IMG/VR virus record: IMGVR_UViG_3300050010_000071
Coordinates: 1-44,400 of that record
Length of the DNA stretch: 44,400 nt
Source: a virus
Strand: one strand, 5' to 3'
How positions within the stretch are numbered: position 1 is the first letter of the stretch; every line of letters begins with the position of its first letter. A program made the position numbers and the translations under genes. This document shows positions 668 through 44,400 of the stretch, in pieces. The notes under the pieces are model-generated. The model made no database searches. It saw only the letters and a program-made list of their open reading frames with translations, and was not told the origin of the DNA.

Positions 668-738
668 CGGAATGCCGGTTGCCCGTAGGGCAAAGATACC
701 TCTTGCGTTATCCTTCCGTCAAGCATATATCTCTCCTT

Positions 739-1140
739 ATGTCAGAGCCAAGGTACAGAAAGAACGTTGGGGCAGTCTTTTCCCTGAAGTTTCACATCGT
801 TTGGTGCCCAAAATATCGGCGCAGCGTGCTGGTGAGCCCAATCGACGCGAGGCTGAAGGAACTGATGTGCGAGGTTGCCGCTGAACACAGCATGATGATC
901 CACGCAATGGAAGTCATGCCAGATCATGTTCATGTGTTTGTCGAAGCCGATCCGACGCTCAGTGTCGCAGAGATAGTTAACCGCCTCAAGGGCAGGAGCA
1001 GCAGAATACTGAGACAGGAATTTCCAGGTCTCCGGTCCCGGCTTCCAACTCTCTGGAGCAGAAGTTACTTTGCTGCATCGATTGGTGGCGTTTCCGAAGA
1101 AGCTATTACGCAATATATCAAGAACCAGAAGGGCAAATAG
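739..1140 (+). CDS. tnpA: IS200/IS605 Y1 transposase TnpA
   Basis: This 133-aa protein has the HUH motif HVH (His63 and His65, within PDHVHVF) and the catalytic tyrosine at about Tyr126 (ITQYIKNQ), both hallmarks of single-strand Y1 transposases. Length is normal for the family. I chose the ATG at 739 because the conserved fold begins soon after it (FSLKFHIVWCPKYRR). The frame is open back to a TTG at 679, but that stretch overlaps the element's left end. tnpB follows after 3 bp. All key residues are present, so it may be active. Confidence 0.93.
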   Translation: MSEPRYRKNVGAVFSLKFHIVWCPKYRRSVLVSPIDARLKELMCEVAAEHSMMIHAMEVMPDHVHVFVEADPTLSVAEIVNRLKGRSSRILRQEFPGLRSRLPTLWSRSYFAASIGGVSEEAITQYIKNQKGK

Positions 1141-1143
1141 CCT

Positions 1144-2289
1144 GTGGCAATCCGGTCTTACAAGTATCTGATTCGACCGAACGGAGCGCAGCAGGCTGCT
1201 CTGGACGAGATGCTGGGGGCTTTTTGCGACCTCTACAATGCCGGACTGCAGCAGCGCATTGAGGCTTATCGGCGTCAGGGAAAGTCTCTCAGCTATGCCG
1301 ACCAGGCCAACGAGTTGAAAGCTGTCAGGCTTGCCGATGACCGCTTGGTGAAGTACGGGTTTTCGACTGAACAGCAGGTTCTCCGCAGACTGGACAAATC
1401 GTTCAAGGCGTTCTTTCGTCGTGTTAAGACCACCAAAAAAGCCGGGTACCCGAGGTTCCGGTCGAAGTCCCGCTATGACAGCGCCGATTTCCGCGTTGGT
1501 GACGGCCTGACGATCCGCAAGTCCGGAAAAATCGGCATCGTCGGCATTCCTGGAGAGATCAAGGTCAAGTGGCACCGGGAACTTCCGACCAAGCCGGTTG
1601 CTGCGGTCCTCTCGCGATCCGCTGGCCGCTGGTACATCTGTTTCCAACTTGAACGGCCCGAGGCCGAGGTTGCAGAGCGGGCCGTCAATCCGGTGGGCAT
1701 TGATGTCGGCCTGACTTCCTTGGTGGCTCTGTCTAACGGGGAAACAGTGCCGACGCCGCAGATCACCAAGACCGCAGCCAAAGGACTTCGTCGCCGTCAG
1801 CGCGCGCTGGCTCGTTGCAAGCGGTTCTCCAAGGGCTGGAAGCGAGCCAAGAAGGTTGTCGCGCGATACCAGAGCAAGATCGCCAATCGTCGCCGCGACT
1901 CTTTGCACAAGCTGTCCAACAGGCTTGCAGACGAGTTTACGCATATCGCGTTTGAGGACTTGAACATCAAAGGGCTTGCGAGCGGCATGCTTGCCAAGTC
2001 TGTTCATAATGCTGCGTGGAATCAGTTGATCTTCATGACGACCTACAAAGCAGAATATGCTGGTGGGATAGTCGAGTTGGTTGACCCGCGCAGAACGAGC
2101 CAAGAATGCTCCGAGTGCGGTACTATCGTCAAGAAAACGCTGGCAACGCGAACCCACCACTGCCCTGAATGCGGGCTGGTGTTGGATCGCGATGTCAACG
2201 CTGCCTTGAACATACTGCATCGTGGCTTTCCTAACTTTCAGGGGCCTGGAGCGGGCCTTGTGGCGTCAAGTCAGCGGGTTGCCGCATAA
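1144..2289 (+). CDS. tnpB: TnpB RNA-guided nuclease of IS element B
   Basis: A 381-aa, full-length TnpB. The RuvC triad is intact: Asp187 in GIDVGLTS, Glu271 in AFEDLN and Asp350 in DRDVNAA. The zinc finger has CSEC (322-325) and CPEC (340-343). The N-terminal segment carries the usual basic wedge/REC region, starting YKYLIRPNGAQQ. The start is a GTG three bases after the tnpA stop, so translation is probably coupled. TnpB uses a guide RNA made from the 3' end of its own gene plus the right end to cut DNA, which helps keep the element in place. Nothing essential seems lost. Confidence 0.95.
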   Translation: MAIRSYKYLIRPNGAQQAALDEMLGAFCDLYNAGLQQRIEAYRRQGKSLSYADQANELKAVRLADDRLVKYGFSTEQQVLRRLDKSFKAFFRRVKTTKKAGYPRFRSKSRYDSADFRVGDGLTIRKSGKIGIVGIPGEIKVKWHRELPTKPVAAVLSRSAGRWYICFQLERPEAEVAERAVNPVGIDVGLTSLVALSNGETVPTPQITKTAAKGLRRRQRALARCKRFSKGWKRAKKVVARYQSKIANRRRDSLHKLSNRLADEFTHIAFEDLNIKGLASGMLAKSVHNAAWNQLIFMTTYKAEYAGGIVELVDPRRTSQECSECGTIVKKTLATRTHHCPECGLVLDRDVNAALNILHRGFPNFQGPGAGLVASSQRVAA

Positions 2290-30824: not shown

Positions 30825-32543
30825 ATGAGCATGGGCCAGCCGCTCGGAGGGGGTCTCGGGAACCTACTCTATACCTCAGCCATGACCCCACCGTTACTGC
30901 AAATCCCGATCGAGATCACCGTTACCTCGACGCTGACGACGACTTTTGCCCAGGCTGGAGTGCTCAGTTATGAGCTGATTGGGGGCGGTGGGGGGGCGGG
31001 CAGCACGGTCAATACCGGTGGCGGTGGCGGGTCTACGGCTGTCGTAATTAACGGGGCACCCATCATCGCGAACGGCGGGAATGGCGGCGGTTTGAGTTCT
31101 CCCGGGACTGCCGGGGTCACCGTTGTCGGCTCTGTTTACGTTCCGGCCGGGGCGACCATCGCCGTATATGTCGGTGGTGGGGGCGGGGGATATGGAGGCG
31201 GGGGCGGATCTGGTTGGTATGGCGGTGGTGGTGGTGGTGGTGGCGGCATGTCAACCCCTGGTGGAGGCGGATCGTCCGTCGGCGGAGCGGCGGCCACGGG
31301 GGCTAGCGCGACCCCGGGGAGTCAATACACAGGGGGCAATGATGGTAGCGGGATAGCCTCTTCGGGGGGGCAAGGGGCGACCGGTGGGACCGGATCTGGA
31401 GTACAAGGTGGCGGAGGTGGTTACGGTAACCCGGGTGGGGGCTATGTAAGCTCGGTGGGCGCCACAGGAGGCTCCACATTATACCACGGTGCAGGCGGTA
31501 TTTATGTCGCAACTAATGCAGTCGTAGGTGGTGGTCAAGGAGGTATAGCGATCCTGACTTTCGTCGCGCAATCATCAGTCCCAATTCCAGCGCCGACGCA
31601 AGTCACGGAAATCACCGTTACGTCGTCATACTCTGGCGTGATGCCGGTCAGCGGGTATCTGGGATATACGCTGATCGGTGGTGGTGGTGGCGCGGGCAAC
31701 TCGGGCGGTAGTGGCGGGGGCGGTGGCGGGTCTACGGCTGTCGTAATTAACGGGGTACCCATCATCGCGAACGGCGGGAATGGTGGTGGTCCGGGTTCTC
31801 CCGGGACTGCCGGGGTCACCGTTGTCGGCTCTGTTTACGTTCCGGCCGGGGCGACCATCGCTGTTTATGTGGGAGGAGGAGGCGGCGGCGGTGGGGGCGG
31901 TGGGGGCGGGTCTGGTTGGTATGGCGGTGGTGGTGCTGGCTATGGTGGTGGCGCGGCAACCCCTGGTGGAGGCGGATCGTCCGTCGGCGGAGCGGCGGGC
32001 ACGGGGGGTAGCGCGACTCCGGGGAGCCAATACACAGGGGGCAATAATTATTACGGGACAGCCTCTTCGGGGGGGCAAGGGGCGACCGGTGGGACCGGAG
32101 CTAGCGGCGCAAGCGGCGGAGGTGGTTACGGTAACCCGGGTGGGGGCTATACCGCGTCGGTGGGCGCCACAGGAGGCTCCACATTATACCCCGGTGCAGG
32201 CGGTATTTATGTCGCAACTAATGCAGTCGTAGGTGGTGGTCAAGGAGGTATAGCGATCCTCTCCTATACTTCCGCAGCAACCCAACTTCTACCCTCGCCG
32301 CAGCTTCGTTACACATCCGCGTCGATCTCTTCGACCGCGATCCCGCAGTCAACCACCATCGCCTACTCTCTGACAGGCTCAGGCGGATCGACGCTGTTTA
32401 GCGTCAACGGAACTACGATCGCAACCGCGACCGCTGGTAACACCGTGACCGGGACAACCTATGTCCAGGGGGGCTCGACTTTCGCGGCAACTGTCGTCGG
32501 GTCGGCATCGTTCGCCTACAACGCCCCATACCCCTATTTCTAG
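30825..32543 (+). CDS. Glycine-rich tail adhesin with tandem modules
   Basis: A 572-aa protein. After a short N-terminal segment there are two long glycine-rich modules (codons from about 30900-31560 and 31610-32260). Each begins with EITVTSxxx...LxYxLIGGGGGAG and ends AIYVATNAVVGGGQGGIAIL-like sequence (G-I-Y-V-A-T). A smaller third beta domain closes it (SISSTAIPQSTTIAYSLTG). Polyglycine motifs such as GWYGGGGGGGGG recall the polyglycine sandwich tip of T-even gp38-type adhesins, which bind receptors. The two big modules are nearly identical over long stretches, so a recent duplication is likely. Confidence 0.72.
   Translation: MSMGQPLGGGLGNLLYTSAMTPPLLQIPIEITVTSTLTTTFAQAGVLSYELIGGGGGAGSTVNTGGGGGSTAVVINGAPIIANGGNGGGLSSPGTAGVTVVGSVYVPAGATIAVYVGGGGGGYGGGGGSGWYGGGGGGGGGMSTPGGGGSSVGGAAATGASATPGSQYTGGNDGSGIASSGGQGATGGTGSGVQGGGGGYGNPGGGYVSSVGATGGSTLYHGAGGIYVATNAVVGGGQGGIAILTFVAQSSVPIPAPTQVTEITVTSSYSGVMPVSGYLGYTLIGGGGGAGNSGGSGGGGGGSTAVVINGVPIIANGGNGGGPGSPGTAGVTVVGSVYVPAGATIAVYVGGGGGGGGGGGGGSGWYGGGGAGYGGGAATPGGGGSSVGGAAGTGGSATPGSQYTGGNNYYGTASSGGQGATGGTGASGASGGGGYGNPGGGYTASVGATGGSTLYPGAGGIYVATNAVVGGGQGGIAILSYTSAATQLLPSPQLRYTSASISSTAIPQSTTIAYSLTGSGGSTLFSVNGTTIATATAGNTVTGTTYVQGGSTFAATVVGSASFAYNAPYPYF
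31020..32260 (+). repeat. Tandem direct repeat inside the adhesin gene, period about 700 bp
   Basis: Long matching stretches recur about 700 bp apart: 31029-31080 with 31729-31780, 31102-31155 with 31802-31855, and about 31438-31555 with 32141-32258. The middle parts differ, mainly in the number of Gly codons. Confidence 0.85.
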
Positions 32544-36876: not shown

Positions 36877-38076
36877 TCACGCCTTGCGGCGCTGCTGTTT
36901 CTGCTTCCGACCTGTAGCACGGTTCGATTCGCAGACCATCCCCGGAAGTCCTCCGGTTCCAAGCTGAAGGATATTGCAGGCAGCGTTCACGTCGGCGTTT
37001 TCAGTGTAGCCGCAAGAGCGGCACACGAACTCGGCCTGAGTGATGCGGTTGTCCGGATGGACAAAGCCGCAATGACTGCACCGCTGGCTGGTATAGGCTG
37101 GCGGGACGGCAATAACGGTTGAGCCGTACCAGACCGACTTATATTCCAGCATTTGCCTGATTTGCGAAGGTGCCACGTCGAGCATGCTGCGGTTCAGCCC
37201 GGACTTGGCCCGGACATTCCGTCCCGGCTCTTCGACCGTGCCCGCCGCACTCGCCGTCATGTTGCGCACCTTCAAGTTTTCAACGAAGATGACGCCGTGG
37301 CTTTTGGCGATCCTCGTGGTTGCCTTATGGGCAGCGTCTTTCCGACGCCGCGCCAGTCTCGCCTGATACCGGGCGACGGCCACCTGAGCCTTGCGCCGGT
37401 TTCGTGATCCCTTTGTCCGCCGGGCAACCCGCTGTTGCAGGGTGCCGAGGCGCCGCCGTTCCGTCTCCGTCGTGCGGGGAAGCATGATGATCTCGCCGGT
37501 AGACAGGGCCATCGGCTTGGCAACACCAAGGTCGATCCCGACCGCAGCGCCCGTCACCGGGACCGGGTCGGCGGCCTCAACCTCGCACTGGATCGAGACG
37601 AACCAAGCATCCGCCGTGCGGGAGACCGTCGCCGTCTTGGGCGTGCCCTGAACAGGACGATGCTGCACCCAACTGACCCATCCCGCCTTGGGCAGGAAGA
37701 TGCGCTCCGACGCAATCTTGAACTGCTTCGGATCGGGATAGCGGAAGCTGTCCCGGTCGCCGCGCTTGCGGAACTGGGGATAGGCCGCCCGACCTTCGAA
37801 GAAGTTCTTGAACGCCTTGTCGAGATCGACAATCGCCTGCTGCAACGGATGGTTCGGCACGTCGCGCAGAAACGGCACTTCGTCCTTCAGTGCCGGCAAC
37901 TCTTTAATCTGGTCGTAGCTGGTCAGCCGAAGCGGCTTGCTCCGATGCCAGTTGAGCTTCCGCTGGTCCAGGGCGAGGTTGTAGACGAGCCGGCAACCCC
38001 CGACCGTTTGCCGAAACAGGATTTCCTGTTCGGGGGTTGGGTACACGCGATAGCGGTATGCCTTGAGCGTCTTCAT
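36877..38076 (-). CDS. tnpB: TnpB RNA-guided nuclease of IS element C
   Basis: 399 aa, full length. The RuvC residues are present: Asp182 in GIDLGVAKP, Glu266 in FVENLKVRNM and Asp362 in NADVNAACN. Zinc-finger cysteines are at 333, 336, 352 and 355. I chose the ATG at 38076 because the protein then starts MKTLKAYRYRVYPTPEQE, as usual in the family. It belongs to a different TnpB branch from the one in element B, judging from low identity outside the motifs. The product should be active if expressed. Confidence 0.93.
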   Translation of the reverse strand: MKTLKAYRYRVYPTPEQEILFRQTVGGCRLVYNLALDQRKLNWHRSKPLRLTSYDQIKELPALKDEVPFLRDVPNHPLQQAIVDLDKAFKNFFEGRAAYPQFRKRGDRDSFRYPDPKQFKIASERIFLPKAGWVSWVQHRPVQGTPKTATVSRTADAWFVSIQCEVEAADPVPVTGAAVGIDLGVAKPMALSTGEIIMLPRTTETERRRLGTLQQRVARRTKGSRNRRKAQVAVARYQARLARRRKDAAHKATTRIAKSHGVIFVENLKVRNMTASAAGTVEEPGRNVRAKSGLNRSMLDVAPSQIRQMLEYKSVWYGSTVIAVPPAYTSQRCSHCGFVHPDNRITQAEFVCRSCGYTENADVNAACNILQLGTGGLPGMVCESNRATGRKQKQQRRKA

Positions 38077-38116
38077 GGGTTGTAGTATAGTCGGTCTAAC
38101 GACAGGAGTCAAGCCC

Positions 38117-38599
38117 ATGGAATTAGAATATCGGCGGGGTCGCAGCGTGGTAAGCGCCCTGCATGTTCATTTGGTATTCGTCACCAAGTACCGGCGTGGC
38201 GTCCTAACTGACCGTGCGCACGCGGTCCTGAACGACGCCTTTCGCGGCGTCTGCGCCGAGTTCAACTCCGTCCTGAAAGAGGCCAACGGCGAGGATGACC
38301 ACGTTCACCTGCTGATCGAGTACCCGCCGACCGTCCAACTTTCCAAGATGGTGAACAGCCTCAAAGGCGTCTCAAGCCGACTTCTACGAAAACACAAGTT
38401 TCCGGAAGTGACCAAGAAGCTCTGGGGTGGGCACCTCTGGTCGCCAAGCTACTTCGCCGCGTCCTGTGGCGGCGCGCCTCTGAGCGTGATCGCTCAGTAC
38501 GTCGCCCAACAGCGGGACGAGACGACGGAGACTGGTCGCAAGAAACGCTCAGACACCGTTAGAGGGCCGCGCAAGCGGAAGCAAACCGGACGCGACTAA
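38117..38599 (+). CDS. tnpA: IS200/IS605 Y1 transposase TnpA of element C
   Basis: 160 aa from ATG 38117. HUH histidines are His62 and His64 in DHVHLLIEYPP. The catalytic tyrosine is about Tyr128 in VIAQYVAQQ. LSKMVNSLKGVSSRLLRK is the standard middle part. A basic tail of about 30 residues (KKRSDTVRGPRKRKQ) extends beyond the usual end. It is transcribed away from tnpB out of a 40-bp shared upstream region. Confidence 0.92.
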   Translation: MELEYRRGRSVVSALHVHLVFVTKYRRGVLTDRAHAVLNDAFRGVCAEFNSVLKEANGEDDHVHLLIEYPPTVQLSKMVNSLKGVSSRLLRKHKFPEVTKKLWGGHLWSPSYFAASCGGAPLSVIAQYVAQQRDETTETGRKKRSDTVRGPRKRKQTGRD

Positions 38600-38882: not shown

Positions 38883-39893
38883 CTATCCTTGGTTATGGGC
38901 GGTCGCCGGGTATCCGTCCGGGTCGGTCGAAACAGAGGTTGGCATCTGGAATGGCGCGCCCCCGGCGTCGGAATCGTCATCATTCCCTTCGCCACGCCGG
39001 AGCGCTTCGGCGTCATCGTCAGCCGCTTTGGCGATAGACTGGAAATTCGCCATCATCGGTTTCAGGTGGTCGCGATGGCCGGGCGCCGCGGCCTTCCACC
39101 ATGCGCGAAATGCGTCGGTGCCGCGTTCAGCCACCTCGCGCGCCTCAATCTCGATATGCCGGTCTCCGGCCGTCTTGAACTCACCGCCGGAGACCCACGA
39201 TGCCAATTTTTGACCCATCGCCTCATTCATCAGTTCGGTGGCGAATGCCGGCCGCAGTGATCCGGGGCATTTACCGGCGGGGGCAGCGATGGTGAACCGT
39301 CCGTCACCGAGCATCTGCGCCATAATCGTCATGTCATAGCGAAGCGTCTTTTCCTGAACTGGAACGACGGGGCCAAGGGTCAACTTCTTGCGTCCATCAA
39401 CGTACTCTTCAATGAGCGGCTGTTTGGCCCGGCTGCACAGGATGATGTGCATATCGGAAGACAACATACGGCGGGTCATCTTACCAAGACGGCGCTTGGG
39501 CTTCGCCCACTTCGCCATATCGTTCTTCTCGGTCGCGGCCTCGACCATATCGAGGACACCGCCCTCGGCAAACCAGGCGTGCGACACGCTGTCGATCACC
39601 AATACATTGACGCCGTGCTCCTCAATTTCGTTCAGCGCCTCGATGTACCGTTCGGGCGTGAACGGCGGCGTGAGCGCGCCATACAGATACCCACCCGCGA
39701 TCAGATCGACATAGGCCCGGCCGCGCTGACCGCCTTCCGTGTCCAGCATCATGCGCTTGGCCGGGTTCGGCTCAATGCCGGCGGCCAGCTTGAGGGCGGA
39801 CAGCGTCTTTCCGGTCTCGCTCAGGCCATAGAGGCTGATCAACAGCTTCATCCCCGACCTGGAAACCGGCTCTATTTGAAGTATTCCCATCAC
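38883..39893 (-). CDS. Sak4-like phage ATPase (AAA_24)
   Basis: The 336-aa protein has Walker A GLSETGKT (residues 23-30), a following MMLDTEGGQRGRAY, Walker B VLVIDSVSHAW and a sensor-like DMHIILCSRAKQPLIEE. These are features of the RecA-like Sak4/AAA_24 phage proteins that work in single-strand annealing recombination. The C-terminus is acidic and looks disordered, often a site of SSB-type interaction. It overlaps the nuclease gene upstream (ATGA), which supports joint action on DNA ends. Confidence 0.82.
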   Translation of the reverse strand: MMGILQIEPVSRSGMKLLISLYGLSETGKTLSALKLAAGIEPNPAKRMMLDTEGGQRGRAYVDLIAGGYLYGALTPPFTPERYIEALNEIEEHGVNVLVIDSVSHAWFAEGGVLDMVEAATEKNDMAKWAKPKRRLGKMTRRMLSSDMHIILCSRAKQPLIEEYVDGRKKLTLGPVVPVQEKTLRYDMTIMAQMLGDGRFTIAAPAGKCPGSLRPAFATELMNEAMGQKLASWVSGGEFKTAGDRHIEIEAREVAERGTDAFRAWWKAAAPGHRDHLKPMMANFQSIAKAADDDAEALRRGEGNDDDSDAGGAPFQMPTSVSTDPDGYPATAHNQG

Positions 39894-40876
39894 GCACCTC
39901 CCACAGCGGCATCATGCGCCGCGTCAATCTTCATCCGCGCCCAGGTCGGCATGGAAACCACGGTGGCCCGGCGCGGGTGGCTCCGGAACGACGGCCAGAT
40001 GGCAGACTTCATGCACTCGGCGAACTTCTGCGTGGCGAACAGCCATTGGTTCCGGCCGGTTTCCAGGTCGTTCGGGTCAACCTCGAACGCCCGCGCGAGG
40101 AACGGAAATTTGGTCATCTGGCAGACATAGAGGTAAAGATCGGGATGGCGTCCGATCGCCATTTCACCGGCCCGGAGATAGTGGGCGCCCCGGATGTGGT
40201 GACCTCGGTCATTGATCTGCCGGGAGAAGAAATCAGTCGTCACGTCGGCGGTGGCCTTGTAGTCGATCATGAGCAGCCGGCCATCGGGCAGGGTATGCAT
40301 GTAATCGACGCGGGCCTTGCACCAGATACCGTCGCGATCCGGCTCCTGCCAGAACATCGAGAACTCGGGCTGTCCGCCATCGAATACGCCGTCGAGTACC
40401 TCGTCCACCGTGCGGAACGGGACGCCGGGGAGTTGGTTGCGGAGCGCAAGGCGCATCTGGAGAATGCGGTCGTGTTCGTCTTGCTTCATGGGCACGATGC
40501 CAGCGGCGCGGGCGGCGGCGACCTGGGACTTTGCGTCTTCGCAAACCCACCCCTCGGACCAATCGCCCTTTTTAGTGAATCCGCCCGCGATGACCTTGAC
40601 GGCGGTCTCGAACCGGGCCGGCTCCAGTAGCGCCATGTGGGCGCCGGTGCCCATGCGCATGGCGTCCGTCTCGCGCTCGGGGCGATTGGGATTGAGCGGG
40701 CTGTCCACCCAGGCAAGGGCTGGGCAACCGTCCGGGTCCGCCAGAGCCGCCGCCAACGATGCCGACAGGGCCGGGGTGGGGGTGATGCCGGGCGAGTGGT
40801 AGGTGGCGGGCGGGATGTCGGGATAGCCGCCAGGAACCGTAATGAGCGGCTGGCGGGTTTGGGCGGTATCAGGCAT
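39890..40876 (-). CDS. PD-(D/E)XK exonuclease, RecE-like (DUF3799)
   Basis: 328 aa from ATG 40876, preceded by GAGGAGAAGGGG. Contains MGTGAHMALLEPARF, FWQEPDRDGIWCKARVDYMH and LPDGRLLMIDYKATADVTTD (the D...DYK nuclease core), then a downstream LYLYVCQMTKFPFL. Such nucleases resect DNA ends so that the annealing ATPase next to them can pair strands. Together they form the phage recombination module. Confidence 0.82.
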   Translation of the reverse strand: MPDTAQTRQPLITVPGGYPDIPPATYHSPGITPTPALSASLAAALADPDGCPALAWVDSPLNPNRPERETDAMRMGTGAHMALLEPARFETAVKVIAGGFTKKGDWSEGWVCEDAKSQVAAARAAGIVPMKQDEHDRILQMRLALRNQLPGVPFRTVDEVLDGVFDGGQPEFSMFWQEPDRDGIWCKARVDYMHTLPDGRLLMIDYKATADVTTDFFSRQINDRGHHIRGAHYLRAGEMAIGRHPDLYLYVCQMTKFPFLARAFEVDPNDLETGRNQWLFATQKFAECMKSAIWPSFRSHPRRATVVSMPTWARMKIDAAHDAAVGGA

Positions 40877-41372
40877 GGAAATGCCCCTTCTCCTCGATCC
40901 GCCGCAGCGTGCGCCGCGCGGATTTGGTTGCGGACTTGTCGATTTGCTCCAGATCCTCAGCATTCGCCGGCTCGGACAGGATTGCGGCGTCGAGCAACTC
41001 ATATCCGTGGTCGAACGACGATCCGGCGTAGAGGACCAGCCGCTCGCTCTCCAGCAACTCGGTCAGTAAGCGCTGTGCGTGCCGATAGGCCGGAAGAACC
41101 CCCGTGCGGGCCTTGTTCTCCATCAGGTCTTTGGCGAGACGGCTGGATCGGCGCAGCAACTTATCGGCGGACTGGCGGTCACGGCCATCGAGTAATGCCT
41201 CGGCCGCAGCCAGGCCGAGATAGTGCATCGCCGGCCCGAGTTCGGTGTGGTCTTCGGCACGCTCGCACTCGCCGATCTCGACGCAATGAACAGCGATGCG
41301 GGACGCGACCTTGAGGAACAGTAGCGGGATTGCCGCGATCTCGACGCGGCGGCGGTCGGTGATGTAGGTCAT
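40869..41372 (-). CDS. Hypothetical early protein, 167 aa
   Basis: Start chosen at ATG 41372 (MTYITDRRRVEIAAIPLLFL). The protein is helical throughout, with AMHYLGLAAAEALLDGRDRQ and NAEDLEQIDKSATKSARRTL. No domain recognised. It overlaps the nuclease gene by 8 bp, so it is probably in the same operon. Confidence 0.65.
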   Translation of the reverse strand: MTYITDRRRVEIAAIPLLFLKVASRIAVHCVEIGECERAEDHTELGPAMHYLGLAAAEALLDGRDRQSADKLLRRSSRLAKDLMENKARTGVLPAYRHAQRLLTELLESERLVLYAGSSFDHGYELLDAAILSEPANAEDLEQIDKSATKSARRTLRRIEEKGHFHA

Positions 41373-42170: not shown

Positions 42171-42256
42171 TGGTGCGCGCTGCCGGACTCGAACCGAGCA
42201 CTCCATGAGGAATCGGATTTTAAGTCCGATGCGTCTACCTATTTCGCCAAGCGCGC
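42171..42256 (-). tRNA. tRNA-Leu (anticodon UAA)
   Basis: Read on the minus strand, the 7-bp acceptor stem GCGCGCT/AGCGCGC is perfect (42250-42256 with 42175-42181). The anticodon stem-loop is TCGGA-CTTAAAA-TCCGA with anticodon TAA. A long variable arm follows, as expected for leucine. The T-loop has GGTTCGAGTCC, and the 3' end is ACCA encoded in DNA. The tRNA lies inside the phage early operon between two protein genes. Phage tRNAs often support translation of genes with different codon use. Confidence 0.95.
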
Positions 42257-42268
42257 ATTCTGTACTAT

Positions 42269-42463
42269 TTACCGTCTCGCTGTTTCTAGTGCGTCGATGG
42301 CTTCCCTGGCTATCGTATAGGACTCCGCAATATCTTCGGCGCAAAGCCTTGGGACTGAGTCCTTGAACTGACCGTAGCTTTGGTCGAGCTTGTATGCGAT
42401 CTTGCGTAATGCAGCTTCCATGACGGCGTTCGCCGAAAGCTGGTGGTCTCCGCTGGTCATCAT
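42269..42463 (-). CDS. Hypothetical small protein, 64 aa
   Basis: Helical product (AALRKIAYKLDQSYGQFKDS, then DIAESYTIAREAIDALETAR). It overlaps the preceding gene by 4 bp (ATGA type). The tRNA starts 13 bp after its end. No family recognised. Confidence 0.6.
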   Translation of the reverse strand: MMTSGDHQLSANAVMEAALRKIAYKLDQSYGQFKDSVPRLCAEDIAESYTIAREAIDALETARR

Positions 42464-42813
42464 GCTGCCCTCCGGGCTTCAGCCTCGTCTTCGCGGGATC
42501 GTTGGTCCATATCCTGGTGGTAGGCGATGCACTGGTCGGCGATGGCGGTCATGTGCTCCGGCAGCAGCATGACCACCGGAATGCTTTGCCAGTCGCTGGT
42601 TGGAACCCACGCATTGGTTGTGGCGTCCCGCTTGCTGGTCCGAAACTCGACGGCGCTGACCTCAAACGATGCAGGCTCGTCGGGTTCGATCTGCTGATAG
42701 CGATCGCAAGCGCCGCGATAGCCTGGGCTGTAGGAGCCGGCGGCGCGAACATCGATTTCGATTTCCAAGCCGGCAATGACGATGCTGTTTTGCTCGATTT
42801 CGATCCAGCTCAT
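42460..42813 (-). CDS. Hypothetical protein, 117 aa, MSWIEIEQN type
   Basis: Begins MSWIEIEQNSIVIAGLEIEI and continues with DRYQQIEPDEPASFEVSAVE and IPVVMLLPEHMTAIADQCIA. AGGTTGCGCC precedes the start. Function unknown. The first nine residues reappear almost unchanged (MDWIEIEQN) at the start of the Gly-repeat ORF at 44241-44351, so this gene is linked to the repeat cassette array beside it. Confidence 0.65.
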   Translation of the reverse strand: MSWIEIEQNSIVIAGLEIEIDVRAAGSYSPGYRGACDRYQQIEPDEPASFEVSAVEFRTSKRDATTNAWVPTSDWQSIPVVMLLPEHMTAIADQCIAYHQDMDQRSREDEAEARRAA

Positions 42814-42841: not shown

Positions 42842-42955
42842 TTACGATCCCGACCGCGACCACGATCCCGACCGCGACCACGACCACGACCGCGACCACG
42901 ACCACGACCGCGACCACGCAGAATCAACTCCTGCGCGAGAAACTGCGGCGATCAT
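42842..42955 (-). CDS. Short Ser-Arg/Trp/Gly dipeptide-repeat protein, 37 aa
   Basis: Starts in an ATGA overlap with the 112-aa gene. Fixed head MIAAVSRAGVDSAW is followed by Ser-X repeats (SRSWSWSRSWSWSRS and so on) to the stop. Ser is always TCG; X is CGG, TGG or a Gly codon. It is the contracted counterpart of the 119-aa protein at 43542-43901, which has the same head. Function unknown. Confidence 0.55.
   Translation of the reverse strand: MIAAVSRAGVDSAWSRSWSWSRSWSWSRSGSWSRSGS
42845..42917. repeat. Degenerate hexamer repeat (Ser-X coding), short copy
   Basis: Plus-strand units of the type CGACCN/CGATCC (GACCGC, GACCAC, GATCCC). They encode Ser-Arg, Ser-Trp and Ser-Gly on the minus strand. 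Confidence 0.85.
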
Positions 42956-43290
42956 TTCTGGCTCCTGGGCAAATCGTGGAGCAACACAGCGTCAATGATT
43001 GCGCCACGTCCGACGATTACCCGACCGTTCGGGAACGGCTCCACTTCGGTGAAATTCAACGTCTTCAACGCATCACTAAAACGCCCGGTGTCGGCGATCC
43101 ATGCGGCATCTTCGAGGACCAACTCCTGCTCGGTCACAGCCACCAGTCGGCCAGTGTCGATCATGGTAACGGTGCGGATGAGGTAGTTTTTCCCGATTTC
43201 CCAGGCATGATCGCCGTTTTTTGTAGATCCAGTATTCAACAGTGCGGCAAGTTCTTTAGCTTGTCCGATCGTAAGTTCGTTGATGTCCAT
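42952..43290 (-). CDS. Repeat-cassette conserved protein, copy 2, 112 aa
   Basis: Sequence MDINELTIGQAKELAALLNT, IGKNYLIRTVTMIDTGRLVA, ELVLEDAAWIADTGRFSDAL and PNGRVIVGRGAIIDAVLLHD, ending LPRSQK. It is nearly identical to the copy at 43898-44236 (about 10 differences). AAAGGG precedes the start and the stop overlaps the Ser-X ORF (ATGA). I do not know its function. I have an impression that similar proteins stand next to Ser-X and Gly-X repeat genes in other bacteria, but this needs a search. Confidence 0.8.
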   Translation of the reverse strand: MDINELTIGQAKELAALLNTGSTKNGDHAWEIGKNYLIRTVTMIDTGRLVAVTEQELVLEDAAWIADTGRFSDALKTLNFTEVEPFPNGRVIVGRGAIIDAVLLHDLPRSQK

Positions 43291-43294
43291 GATT

Positions 43295-43552
43295 TTACCC
43301 TTTTCTGTAGCCGTAGCCGTAGCCGTAGCCGTAACCGTTTCCGTCGCCGTAGCCGTCGCCGCCGCCTTTTCCGTAGCCGGTTCCGTAGCCGTAGCCGTCG
43401 CCGTAGACGTCCCTGTAGCCGTCGCCGTTTCCGTCGCTGTCGCCGTGGCCGTAGCCGTTTCCGTCGCCGGAGCCGCAGCCGCAGCCGCAGCCGTCGCCGT
43501 CGCCGTTTCTTCCGTAGCCGGTCAAGGCGGGGCTTTCGCCATCACCGAACAT
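43295..43552 (-). CDS. Gly-Tyr/Asp/Asn dipeptide-repeat protein, 85 aa
   Basis: Begins MFGDGESPALTGYGRNGDGD, then Gly-X repeats with X mostly Tyr, Asp or Asn, ending GYGYGYGYGYRKG. On the plus strand its code is mainly the hexamers GTAGCC, GTCGCC and GTTTCC, so Tyr, Asp and Asn differ mostly at one codon position. It overlaps the Ser-X gene by 11 bp and stops 4 bp before the next 112-aa gene, so all three are probably co-translated. No signal peptide or membrane helix is visible. Function unknown. Confidence 0.6.
   Translation of the reverse strand: MFGDGESPALTGYGRNGDGDGCGCGCGSGDGNGYGHGDSDGNGDGYRDVYGDGYGYGTGYGKGGGDGYGDGNGYGYGYGYGYRKG
43305..43520. repeat. Degenerate hexamer repeat (Gly-X coding)
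   Basis: Units mostly GTAGCC, GTCGCC and GTTTCC on the plus strand with some variants (GCAGCC, GTGGCC). They encode Gly-Tyr, Gly-Asp and Gly-Asn on the minus strand. The same units return at 44253-44335 and 44360-44400. Confidence 0.85.
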
Positions 43553-43901
43553 AGTTTGCCCACTTCTCGGCATTCGACCCCGACACCGAACCCGACCACG
43601 ACCGCGACCGCGCCAGCGACCGCGAACCCGACCGCGACCGCGCCAGCGACCGCGACCCCGCCACCGAACCCGAACCCGACCACGACCGCGCCACCGAACC
43701 CGCCACCGAACCCGACCATGACCACGACCGCGCCCCCGACCGCGACACCGAACCCGAACCCGACCACGACCGCGACCCCGACCGCGACCACGACCATGCT
43801 CCCGACCATGACCATGACCCCGACCACGACCCCGAACCCGAACCCGAACGCGACCCCGACCATGCAGAATCAACTCCTGCGCGAGAAACTGCGGCGATCA
43901 T
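43542..43901 (-). CDS. Long Ser-Gly/Trp/Arg dipeptide-repeat protein, 119 aa
   Basis: Starts in an ATGA overlap with the 112-aa gene copy 1. Head MIAAVSRAGVDSAWSGSRSG, then about 90 residues of Ser-X with X = Gly, Trp, Arg (some Val, Ala, Leu), ending in a normal tail SGSNAEKWANYVR. Variation is at the first base of every second codon (TCG-NGG type). The presence of a non-repeat head and tail in the same frame argues that this frame is the coding one, although other frames are also open. Function unknown. Confidence 0.6.
   Translation of the reverse strand: MIAAVSRAGVDSAWSGSRSGSGSGSWSGSWSWSGAWSWSRSGSRSWSGSGSVSRSGARSWSWSGSVAGSVARSWSGSGSVAGSRSLARSRSGSRSLARSRSWSGSVSGSNAEKWANYVR
43578..43862. 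repeat. Degenerate hexamer repeat (Ser-X coding), long copy
   Basis: About 285 bp of units such as GACCGC, GACCAC, GAACCC and GACCCC, encoding the long Ser-X protein. Internal blocks such as CGCGCCAGCGACCGCGA recur, which suggests slippage or unequal recombination. Confidence 0.85.
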
Positions 43902-44236
43902 TTCTGGCTCCTGGGCAAATCGTGGAGCAACACAGCGTCAATGATTGCGCCGCGTCCGATGATAACCCGACCGTTCGGGAACGGCTCCACTTCGGTGAAA
44001 TTCGACGTCTCTAACGCATCACTAAAGCGCCCGGTGTCGGCGATCCATGAGGCTTCGTCCAGCACCAGCTCCTGCTCGGTCACCAACACCAGTCGGCCAG
44101 TGTCGATCATGGTCACTGTTCGGATGAGGTAGTTTTTCCCGATTTCCCAGGCATGAGCGCCGTTTTTTGTAGATCCAGTATTCAACAGTGCGGCAAGTTC
44201 TTTCGCTTGTCCGATCGTAAGTTCGTTGATGTCCAT
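43898..44236 (-). CDS. Repeat-cassette conserved protein, copy 1, 112 aa
   Basis: The same protein as at 42952-43290, with substitutions such as Gly-Ala-His for Gly-Asp-His, LVLVTEQ for LVAVTEQ and DEASW for EDAAW. These are spread out and conservative, which suggests that both copies are under selection. AAAGGG upstream; ATGA overlap downstream with the long Ser-X gene. Confidence 0.8.
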   Translation of the reverse strand: MDINELTIGQAKELAALLNTGSTKNGAHAWEIGKNYLIRTVTMIDTGRLVLVTEQELVLDEASWIADTGRFSDALETSNFTEVEPFPNGRVIIGRGAIIDAVLLHDLPRSQK

Positions 44237-44240
44237 GATT

Positions 44241-44351
44241 TTACCCTTTTCTGTAGCCGTAGCCGTAGCCGTAGCCGTAACCGTTTCCGTCGCCGTTTCC
44301 GTAGCCTATGCCGTCGCCGTTTCCGTTTTGCTCGATTTCGATCCAGTCCAT
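44241..44351 (-). CDS. MDWIEIEQN-headed Gly-X repeat protein, 36 aa
   Basis: Begins MDWIEIEQN, almost the start of the 117-aa protein at 42813, then passes directly into GNGDGIGYGNGDGNGYGYGY and ends GYRKG like the 85-aa Gly-X protein. It stops 4 bp before the 112-aa gene copy 1. It looks like a recombinant in which repeat DNA joined the head of another gene. Confidence 0.5.
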   Translation of the reverse strand: MDWIEIEQNGNGDGIGYGNGDGNGYGYGYGYGYRKG

Positions 44352-44356
44352 GACAT

Positions 44357-44400
44357 TCATCCGTTTCCGAAGCCGTTTCCGTAGTCGTTTCCGTAGCCGT
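44357..44400 (-). CDS. C-terminal end of a further Gly-X repeat protein, cut by window edge
   Basis: The minus-strand frame reads GYGNDYGNGFGNG and stops at TGA (44357-44359), 5 bp before the next ATG. It shows that the repeat array goes on beyond the window. Confidence 0.5.
   Translation of the reverse strand, partial: GYGNDYGNGFGNG

Follow-up and report, generated by a model that had tools for sequence, protein, structure and literature searches.

A phage cassette of a predicted Sm/LSm-fold protein and a dipeptide-repeat protein with conserved composition and changing order

Many uncultured phages carry a cassette which consists of a gene for a small predicted Sm/LSm-fold protein and a translationally coupled gene for a low-complexity protein with a short head and about 10-50 two-residue units. 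The odd residue of the unit is fixed (Ser, or Gly in a sister cassette) and the even residue is taken from a three-letter set. In the literature that was searched the pair is undescribed, and it appears to be a new system. The whole explanation that we propose, and to which we give clearly less than even weight, is that the cassette supplies a predicted Sm-type RNA-binding ring and, in trans, a disordered sticker-spacer tail, and that the two would form multivalent assemblies.

The window, by which we mean the whole 44.4-kb stretch of DNA that was analysed, is the end of phage record G000, and all cassette genes in it are on the minus strand (Table 1). A sequence-only reading of this DNA had stated that a 112-aa gene occurs twice with an offset of 946 bp and that each copy is coupled by ATGA to an ORF consisting of the head MIAAVSRAGVDSAW and Ser-X units. 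Both statements are correct, and the two copies are identical at 318 of 339 nt. The same reading described an 85-aa Gly-X ORF ending 4 bp before a 112-aa gene; the ORF is there, and the other copy also has a Gly-X ORF in front of it. Read from right to left on the minus strand the order is the end of a Gly-X ORF, a Gly-X ORF, gene B, Ser-X ORF B, the 85-aa Gly-X ORF, gene A, Ser-X ORF A and a 117-aa gene. The last of these is without a Pfam or PHROG family, and at its head it is similar to the MNVMDWIEIEQN Gly-X ORFs. The 6-nt period of the window arrays was confirmed with TRF.

Table 1. Features of the cassette region in the window
Feature	Position	Strand
112-aa Sm/LSm-fold gene, copy A (fold predicted)	43290..42952	-
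112-aa Sm/LSm-fold gene, copy B (fold predicted)	44236..43898	-
Ser-X ORF A, 37 aa, head MIAAVSRAGVDSAW, ATGA overlap with copy A	42955..42842	-
Ser-X ORF B, 119 aa, head MIAAVSRAGVDSAW, ATGA overlap with copy B	43901..43542	-
Tail SNAEKWANYVR-stop of Ser-X ORF B, 3' remnant of Gly-X partner gene	43542..43577	-
Gly-X ORF, 85 aa (Gly-Tyr/Asp/Asn), stop 4 bp upstream of copy A	43552..43295	-
Second Gly-X ORF, 39 aa, head MNVMDWIEIEQN, stop 4 bp upstream of copy B	44360..44241	-
Third Gly-X ORF, 3' end only, cut at window edge	44357..44400	-
117-aa gene MSWIEIEQN..., downstream of the cassettes	42460..42813	-

Some other features of the window are worth recording. A tRNA-Leu(taa) at 42171-42256(-) lies near the cassette region and is a possible insertion landmark. 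Just downstream of the cassettes are genes for a RecA-like ATPase, Sak4-type by appearance (38883-39893(-)), and a PD-(D/E)XK exonuclease-like protein (39890-41002(-)), which are a possible source of repeat recombination. Two IS200/IS605-like pairs of a small transposase and a TnpB-like protein, judged from sequence, are located at 679-1140(+) with 1144-2289(+) and at 38063-38599(+) with 36877-38118(-). A 572-aa protein (30825-32543(+)) with long poly-Gly/Gly-Tyr stretches and a duplicated domain is probably structural.

The sequence to the right of the window was obtained from the IMG/VR contig L003, which equals the window over 6,136 nt, every array included, and continues rightward. In this contig the third Gly-X ORF is complete (83 aa, L003:3683-3934), and just right of the window, preceding the Gly-X ORFs, there is an intact 90-aa Gly-X partner gene (L003:3314-3586). 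Ser-X ORF B has the last residues of this 90-aa protein as its tail, which means that the apparent three-part unit of the window contains a recombination scar. The earlier proposal of a co-translated module which grows, shrinks and duplicates in a phage accessory region is supported except for its being three-part: relatives show two-gene units, and a three-gene module was rejected because the Gly-X ORFs have a separate Sm-fold partner. It had been allowed for that the repeats could be an assembly artefact, and several metagenome contigs do end within arrays. We reject an artefact as extremely improbable, since the array is identical in the window and in L003 (which counts only weakly, as L003 may be from the same sample), is found in the circular MW202573.1, and is of a kind carried by cultured, separately sequenced phages.

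A protein-only search of IMG/VR gave 127 relatives of the 112-aa protein, and 79 loci were fetched. In the first set of 87 distinct genes, the next ORF has at least 75% alternating Ser behind 75 of them; the remaining 12 comprise nine with Ser-rich, shorter or degenerate ORFs, one (L050) with an array without a clear start, and two (L125, L141) with none. When all loci are taken, a set which is biased because it was partly recruited through the arrays themselves, the array is clear behind 158 of 187 distinct genes, short or degenerate behind 14 and absent behind 13, and a contig end cuts off the remaining 2. The outcome which the sequence-only reading had named as fatal to its proposal, homologues that never have repeat ORFs next to them, is therefore not what is seen. 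All six relatives on MAG contigs (bacterial or archaeal) have the array, at identities down to 49%. In the reverse direction the starting point was 46 mixed Arg/Trp/Gly arrays, of which 42 came, among the matches listed, from the DNA pattern AGCNGG alone. The gene directly preceding the array is the Sm-fold gene in 32 of the 46 and, among the matches listed, in 28 of the 42 pattern-only arrays; at least 6 of the arrays without it, again among the matches listed, have no upstream sequence at all. The Sm-fold gene with its Ser-X ORF is the general unit in the relatives, and this unit has two genes.

Annotated relatives of the pair are limited to two spring-metagenome phages. In the circular MW202573.1 the pair is annotated as hypothetical proteins, and MW202825.1 has an unannotated match to the 112-aa protein. 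No member of the 112-aa family was found in plasmids. A fused protein of Sm and Ser-X parts would support a joint function; none was noticed in passing among the loci. Variants of the layout were seen in a few loci. L052 has six Ser-X arrays around a single Sm-fold gene (L052:45-2626), an extreme tandem expansion, and L007-L009 have extra Ser-X arrays just upstream of the Sm-fold gene. In L013 a Cys-Ser-X tripeptide-repeat ORF (NCSYCSDCSGCS..., L013:603-1298), perhaps another repeat class, precedes a 112-aa homologue whose Ser-X ORF is very short.

Head conservation, reading frame and codon sets, and not selection on the units, indicate that the Ser-X array is translated. The head reads M-N-A-A-x-L-R-x-G-F/Y-D or a variant of this. 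Among 88 distinct heads the codon differences at a single position number 12,129 at the third position versus 2,634 and 1,563 at the others; all six Arg codons are used for Arg7 and all four Gly codons for Gly9. The head therefore evolves under constraint at the protein level. At 85 of 85 testable loci the array has its Ser in the frame of the head, where chance would give one third. There is usually an ATGA or GTGA overlap with the upstream stop (91 of 154 starts overlap it by 4 nt), and an SD-like motif is present at 18 of the 33 non-overlapping starts.

The hexamer has a very simple structure. The median entropies of its six positions in 74 arrays are 0, 0, 0, 1.535, 0 and 0 bits, and the variable base is the first of a codon NGG, giving Arg, Trp or Gly. 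The three residues are all present in each of the 44 arrays with at least 20 counted units. The main Ser codon differs between arrays (TCG, TCA, TCT or AGC), and where there are at least four NGG Arg codons these are all CGG or all AGG in 62 of 66 arrays. Phage L077 has two cassettes with differing codon sets, which means that the codon choice is a property of the array and not of the host. As a rule an array has a single Ser codon and a single codon for each of Arg, Trp and Gly. A simple model accounts for this: a few founder hexamers expand into an array, slippage and recombination homogenise it and selection retains the three letters. No array has TCC as its main Ser codon. A TCC-NGG unit would make CCNGG sites (Dcm/EcoRII-type CCWGG), and restriction avoidance is a possible reason.

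A tandem repeat with constant and variable bases next to a gene for a putative RNA-binding protein brings to mind the VIPR vrRNAs, in which a constant GG and hypervariable bases are repeated and bound by a neighbouring RNA-binding protein (PMC13142463). The array could likewise be a guide RNA, bound by the neighbouring protein and specifying a gapped target by its variable bases. This would fit with five hexamer positions being near-invariant regardless of codon degeneracy and one hypervariable, with the lack of synonymous excess within arrays, with an array order that differs between otherwise identical phages, and with the likeness of the Gly-X unit GGC-NN-C to GGY/NN. We nevertheless think it very doubtful, because the alphabet depends on the codons and the array appears to be translated: 62 of 66 arrays use three letters, the missing base always being an Arg alternative, the Ser codon switches between TCN and AGC, and all 85 arrays are in frame with a coding head. 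Moreover, the partner is predicted to have an Sm fold and not a RAMP fold, and the excess of targets over shuffled probes was nil in 3.5 Mb, a small database, at spacings of 1-6.

Purifying selection on single units was sought within the arrays and is not visible there. Among 98 within-array changes of Ser codons 34 are synonymous and 64 non-synonymous, which is no excess over chance, and second-position changes in the X codons are common. One would expect no synonymous bias if single units can be dispensed with or if the turnover is faster than selection. The longest repeated word is longer than in shuffled arrays (p<0.05) in 13 of 51 arrays, which reveals internal segmental duplications. These duplications, the very fast turnover and the GG every 6 nt would also be found if both genes served DNA or recombination and the tract were mainly a recombination hot spot or a DNA-structure element, translated only incidentally. 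That Ser is kept through unrelated codons (TCN, AGC), and with one codon per residue, makes this very unlikely, as do degenerate arrays such as that of L070, which have lost GG and retained frequent Ser, Arg/Lys and Trp.

A fold prediction for the 112-aa protein, which had been suggested as a check, was made with AF2 (pLDDT 86). The best 50 PDB matches are all Sm/LSm proteins in both PDB comparisons, with Z values of 8.1-9.1 (for 1i8f_C, Z 9.0 and rmsd 1.8 over 64), and the predicted N-terminal helix and bent five-stranded barrel are those of the Sm fold. In an alignment of 38 sequences G94-R95 is invariant and G96 nearly so, which fits the Arg-Gly motif of Sm2. In the same alignment the classical Sm1 Asn, or DxxMN, RNA-contact motif is absent, and a sequence of the type TEQELVLEDA is found in its place. 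The protein matches neither the LSM nor the Hfq model of Pfam and has no family in Pfam, PHROG, NCBIfam or PADLOC, and a sequence search of PDB gave nothing credible. From the model we assign it a predicted Sm/LSm fold.

The sister cassette has the same gene order. A scan of viral contigs for the repeat GGCNAC gave at least 141 Gly-X arrays, and of 95 with a nearby upstream ORF, among the matches listed, 69 loci have an ORF that belongs to one BLAST cluster. The alphabet contains Tyr and Asp, to which, of 124 arrays among the matches listed, 60 add Asn, 38 Ser and 14 both. Three of five upstream partners tested are above the cut-off for DUF6948 (PF22253), with E values of 1e-20 to 1e-30 (best 1.6e-30). 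For the QRGW-type partner in the window phage the link to DUF6948 comes only from profile comparison (hhalign 87%). A DUF6948 search of the window gave no match, since the Gly-X partner is outside the window and is not a direct Pfam match. The AF2 model of the Gly-X partner has a pLDDT of 92 and its PDB matches are nearly all Sm/LSm, with 3BY7 first; the best Z values, 8.6 and 8.2 (3BY7, 8.2 over 73 residues), are nearer to the level that a common arrangement alone can give. We take the Gly-X partner, DUF6948 or a relative of it, to be a second predicted Sm-fold family. Some DUF6948 members and the 112-aa protein have in common the N-terminal module MNxDDLTIGxAKELA, and the partner in Vibrio phage IKEMa6-1 starts with MNINDLTIGQAKELAAMFGNQ, which is this module. 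Comparison of the two profiles gives 98.3% in hhalign, in an alignment that spans only the N-terminal module and the first strands. None of the 38 members of the 112-aa family has a DUF6948 match in Pfam.

Cultured carriers of the Gly-X cassette are Pectobacterium, Iodobacter (PhiPLPE), Vibrio and Chlorobiaceae phages. In L516 (NZ_CP119142.1 near 1152541), a Neisseria gonorrhoeae replicon, a DUF6948-like gene also precedes a Gly-X frame, without annotation in the gene table; this 2.17-Mb record is labelled plasmid.

The cultured phages permit a comparison of arrays in close relatives. The DUF6948 gene precedes a Gly-X ORF of 53-89 aa in Pectobacterium phages Taid, Ymer, Abuela, Amona, Koroua, Sabo and Pappous and in Dickeya phage Setonix. 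In Ymer and Amona 550 nt upstream and 600 nt downstream of the array are identical, and the arrays are of 73 and 67 residues and differ in order. The genomes of these Pectobacterium and Dickeya phages are short-read assemblies (PMC11445585), so their exact array lengths are provisional. For pairs of these arrays the similarity in order is mostly no higher than for shuffled arrays, the ends excepted. In the Ser-X family the flanks of L038 and L041 are 99.7-100% identical, and a few units have been lost and gained. The composition of the array is kept, and its order and length turn over very fast. In another reading the unit order is information and selection favours diversity as such, for use as a barcode, as a self/non-self key or as a dual coding-and-guide RNA that an Sm-fold ring would read; this seems to us very improbable.

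Our proposal is instead that only composition matters. The Sm-fold protein would form a ring that binds phage or host RNA, as its predicted fold suggests, and the repeat protein would be a disordered tail in trans, held to the ring by the head, which is conserved. Arg/Trp (or Tyr/Asp) would act as stickers and Ser/Gly as spacers, a composition that suggests multivalent assembly. Ring and tail may then make RNA-protein assemblies, either condensates or an RNA-chaperone particle, which would alter the fate of RNA in infection or against competing elements. If only composition matters, slippage and recombination could reshuffle the hexamers freely while selection retains all three letters. The Ser-X arrays have a median net charge of +8, with acidic residues at 6 in 3,734, and the cationic Ser-X and anionic Gly-X products could co-assemble. 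C9orf72-type dipeptide repeats were considered and kept as a physical analogy only; matches of the Ser-X protein to NCBIfam MSCRAMM models were dismissed as low-complexity matches.

The main rival is a regulator-effector pair. The repeat protein would act alone, as a membrane-active, cell-surface or host-factor-binding protein, and the Sm-fold protein would be its regulator, binding its own mRNA, or its chaperone. Overlapping genes often encode regulator-effector pairs, the composition is rich in Arg and Trp, and in the Pectobacterium phages the cassette is accessory and on the strand opposite to the flanking late genes. Membrane lysis does not explain why the sister cassette has the opposite charge with an unchanged gene order, and on inspection the Ser-X heads have no evident signal peptide or hydrophobic segment. 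We give this reading perhaps a modest chance, and consider it on the whole unlikely.

The view of the sequence-only reading that this is an undescribed system has held up, as a literature search found no description of the association. Nor were descriptions found in literature searches for DUF6948 or for the array peptide strings and glycine-rich phage repeats. Two function-unassigned families, the 112-aa family and DUF6948, are here joined into what would be one widespread phage strategy, an Sm-fold protein with a polymer defined by composition and scrambled in order. If the tail in trans is real, phages have arrived independently at an Sm-type core with low-complexity tails, like eukaryotic snRNPs and P-body proteins, in a system small enough to dissect. 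The fixed composition and changing order between 1,150 identical flanking nucleotides make it possible to see in nature whether composition is all that a disordered protein needs. If instead the order is informative, the cassette would represent a novel type of repeat-coded recognition, a second, Sm-based branch beside VIPR. Since the Gly-X form is present in cultured phages, that form is open to testing now.

The cassette may be compared with several known groups. Eukaryotic Sm/LSm proteins bear Arg-Gly tails. The phage protein shares with eukaryotic Sm and LSm4, archaeal SmAP and bacterial Hfq the predicted fold and the Arg-Gly of Sm2, and the cassette resembles them in having a folded core plus a low-complexity region; in Hfq it is the C-terminal domain that is disordered (PMC5606850). 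It differs from them in that the low-complexity part is encoded by a gene of its own, which overlaps the first, and has an alternating three-letter alphabet and a hypervariable order, and in that the phage protein is without the Sm1 Asn and without a profile match to the LSM or Hfq models. The best structural match of the Gly-X partner, 3BY7, is an Sm-like protein from an uncultured organism, presumably of phage origin; we know of no repeat partner for it. DUF6948 itself is the partner in the Gly-X cassette, and the 112-aa protein is not a Pfam member of it. With VIPR the cassette shares a phage-borne tandem repeat of constant and hypervariable positions beside a gene with a predicted RNA-binding fold. 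The VIPR RNA is about 100 nt, non-coding and has a structured 3' tail; the arrays of the phage cassette are in frame with a conserved coding head. VIPR repeats are YNNGG pentamers with free NN next to a RAMP/RRM-fold partner (PMC13142463), whereas the phage cassette has hexamers that are probably coding, one variable base of three letters, and an adjacent partner predicted to have the Sm fold.
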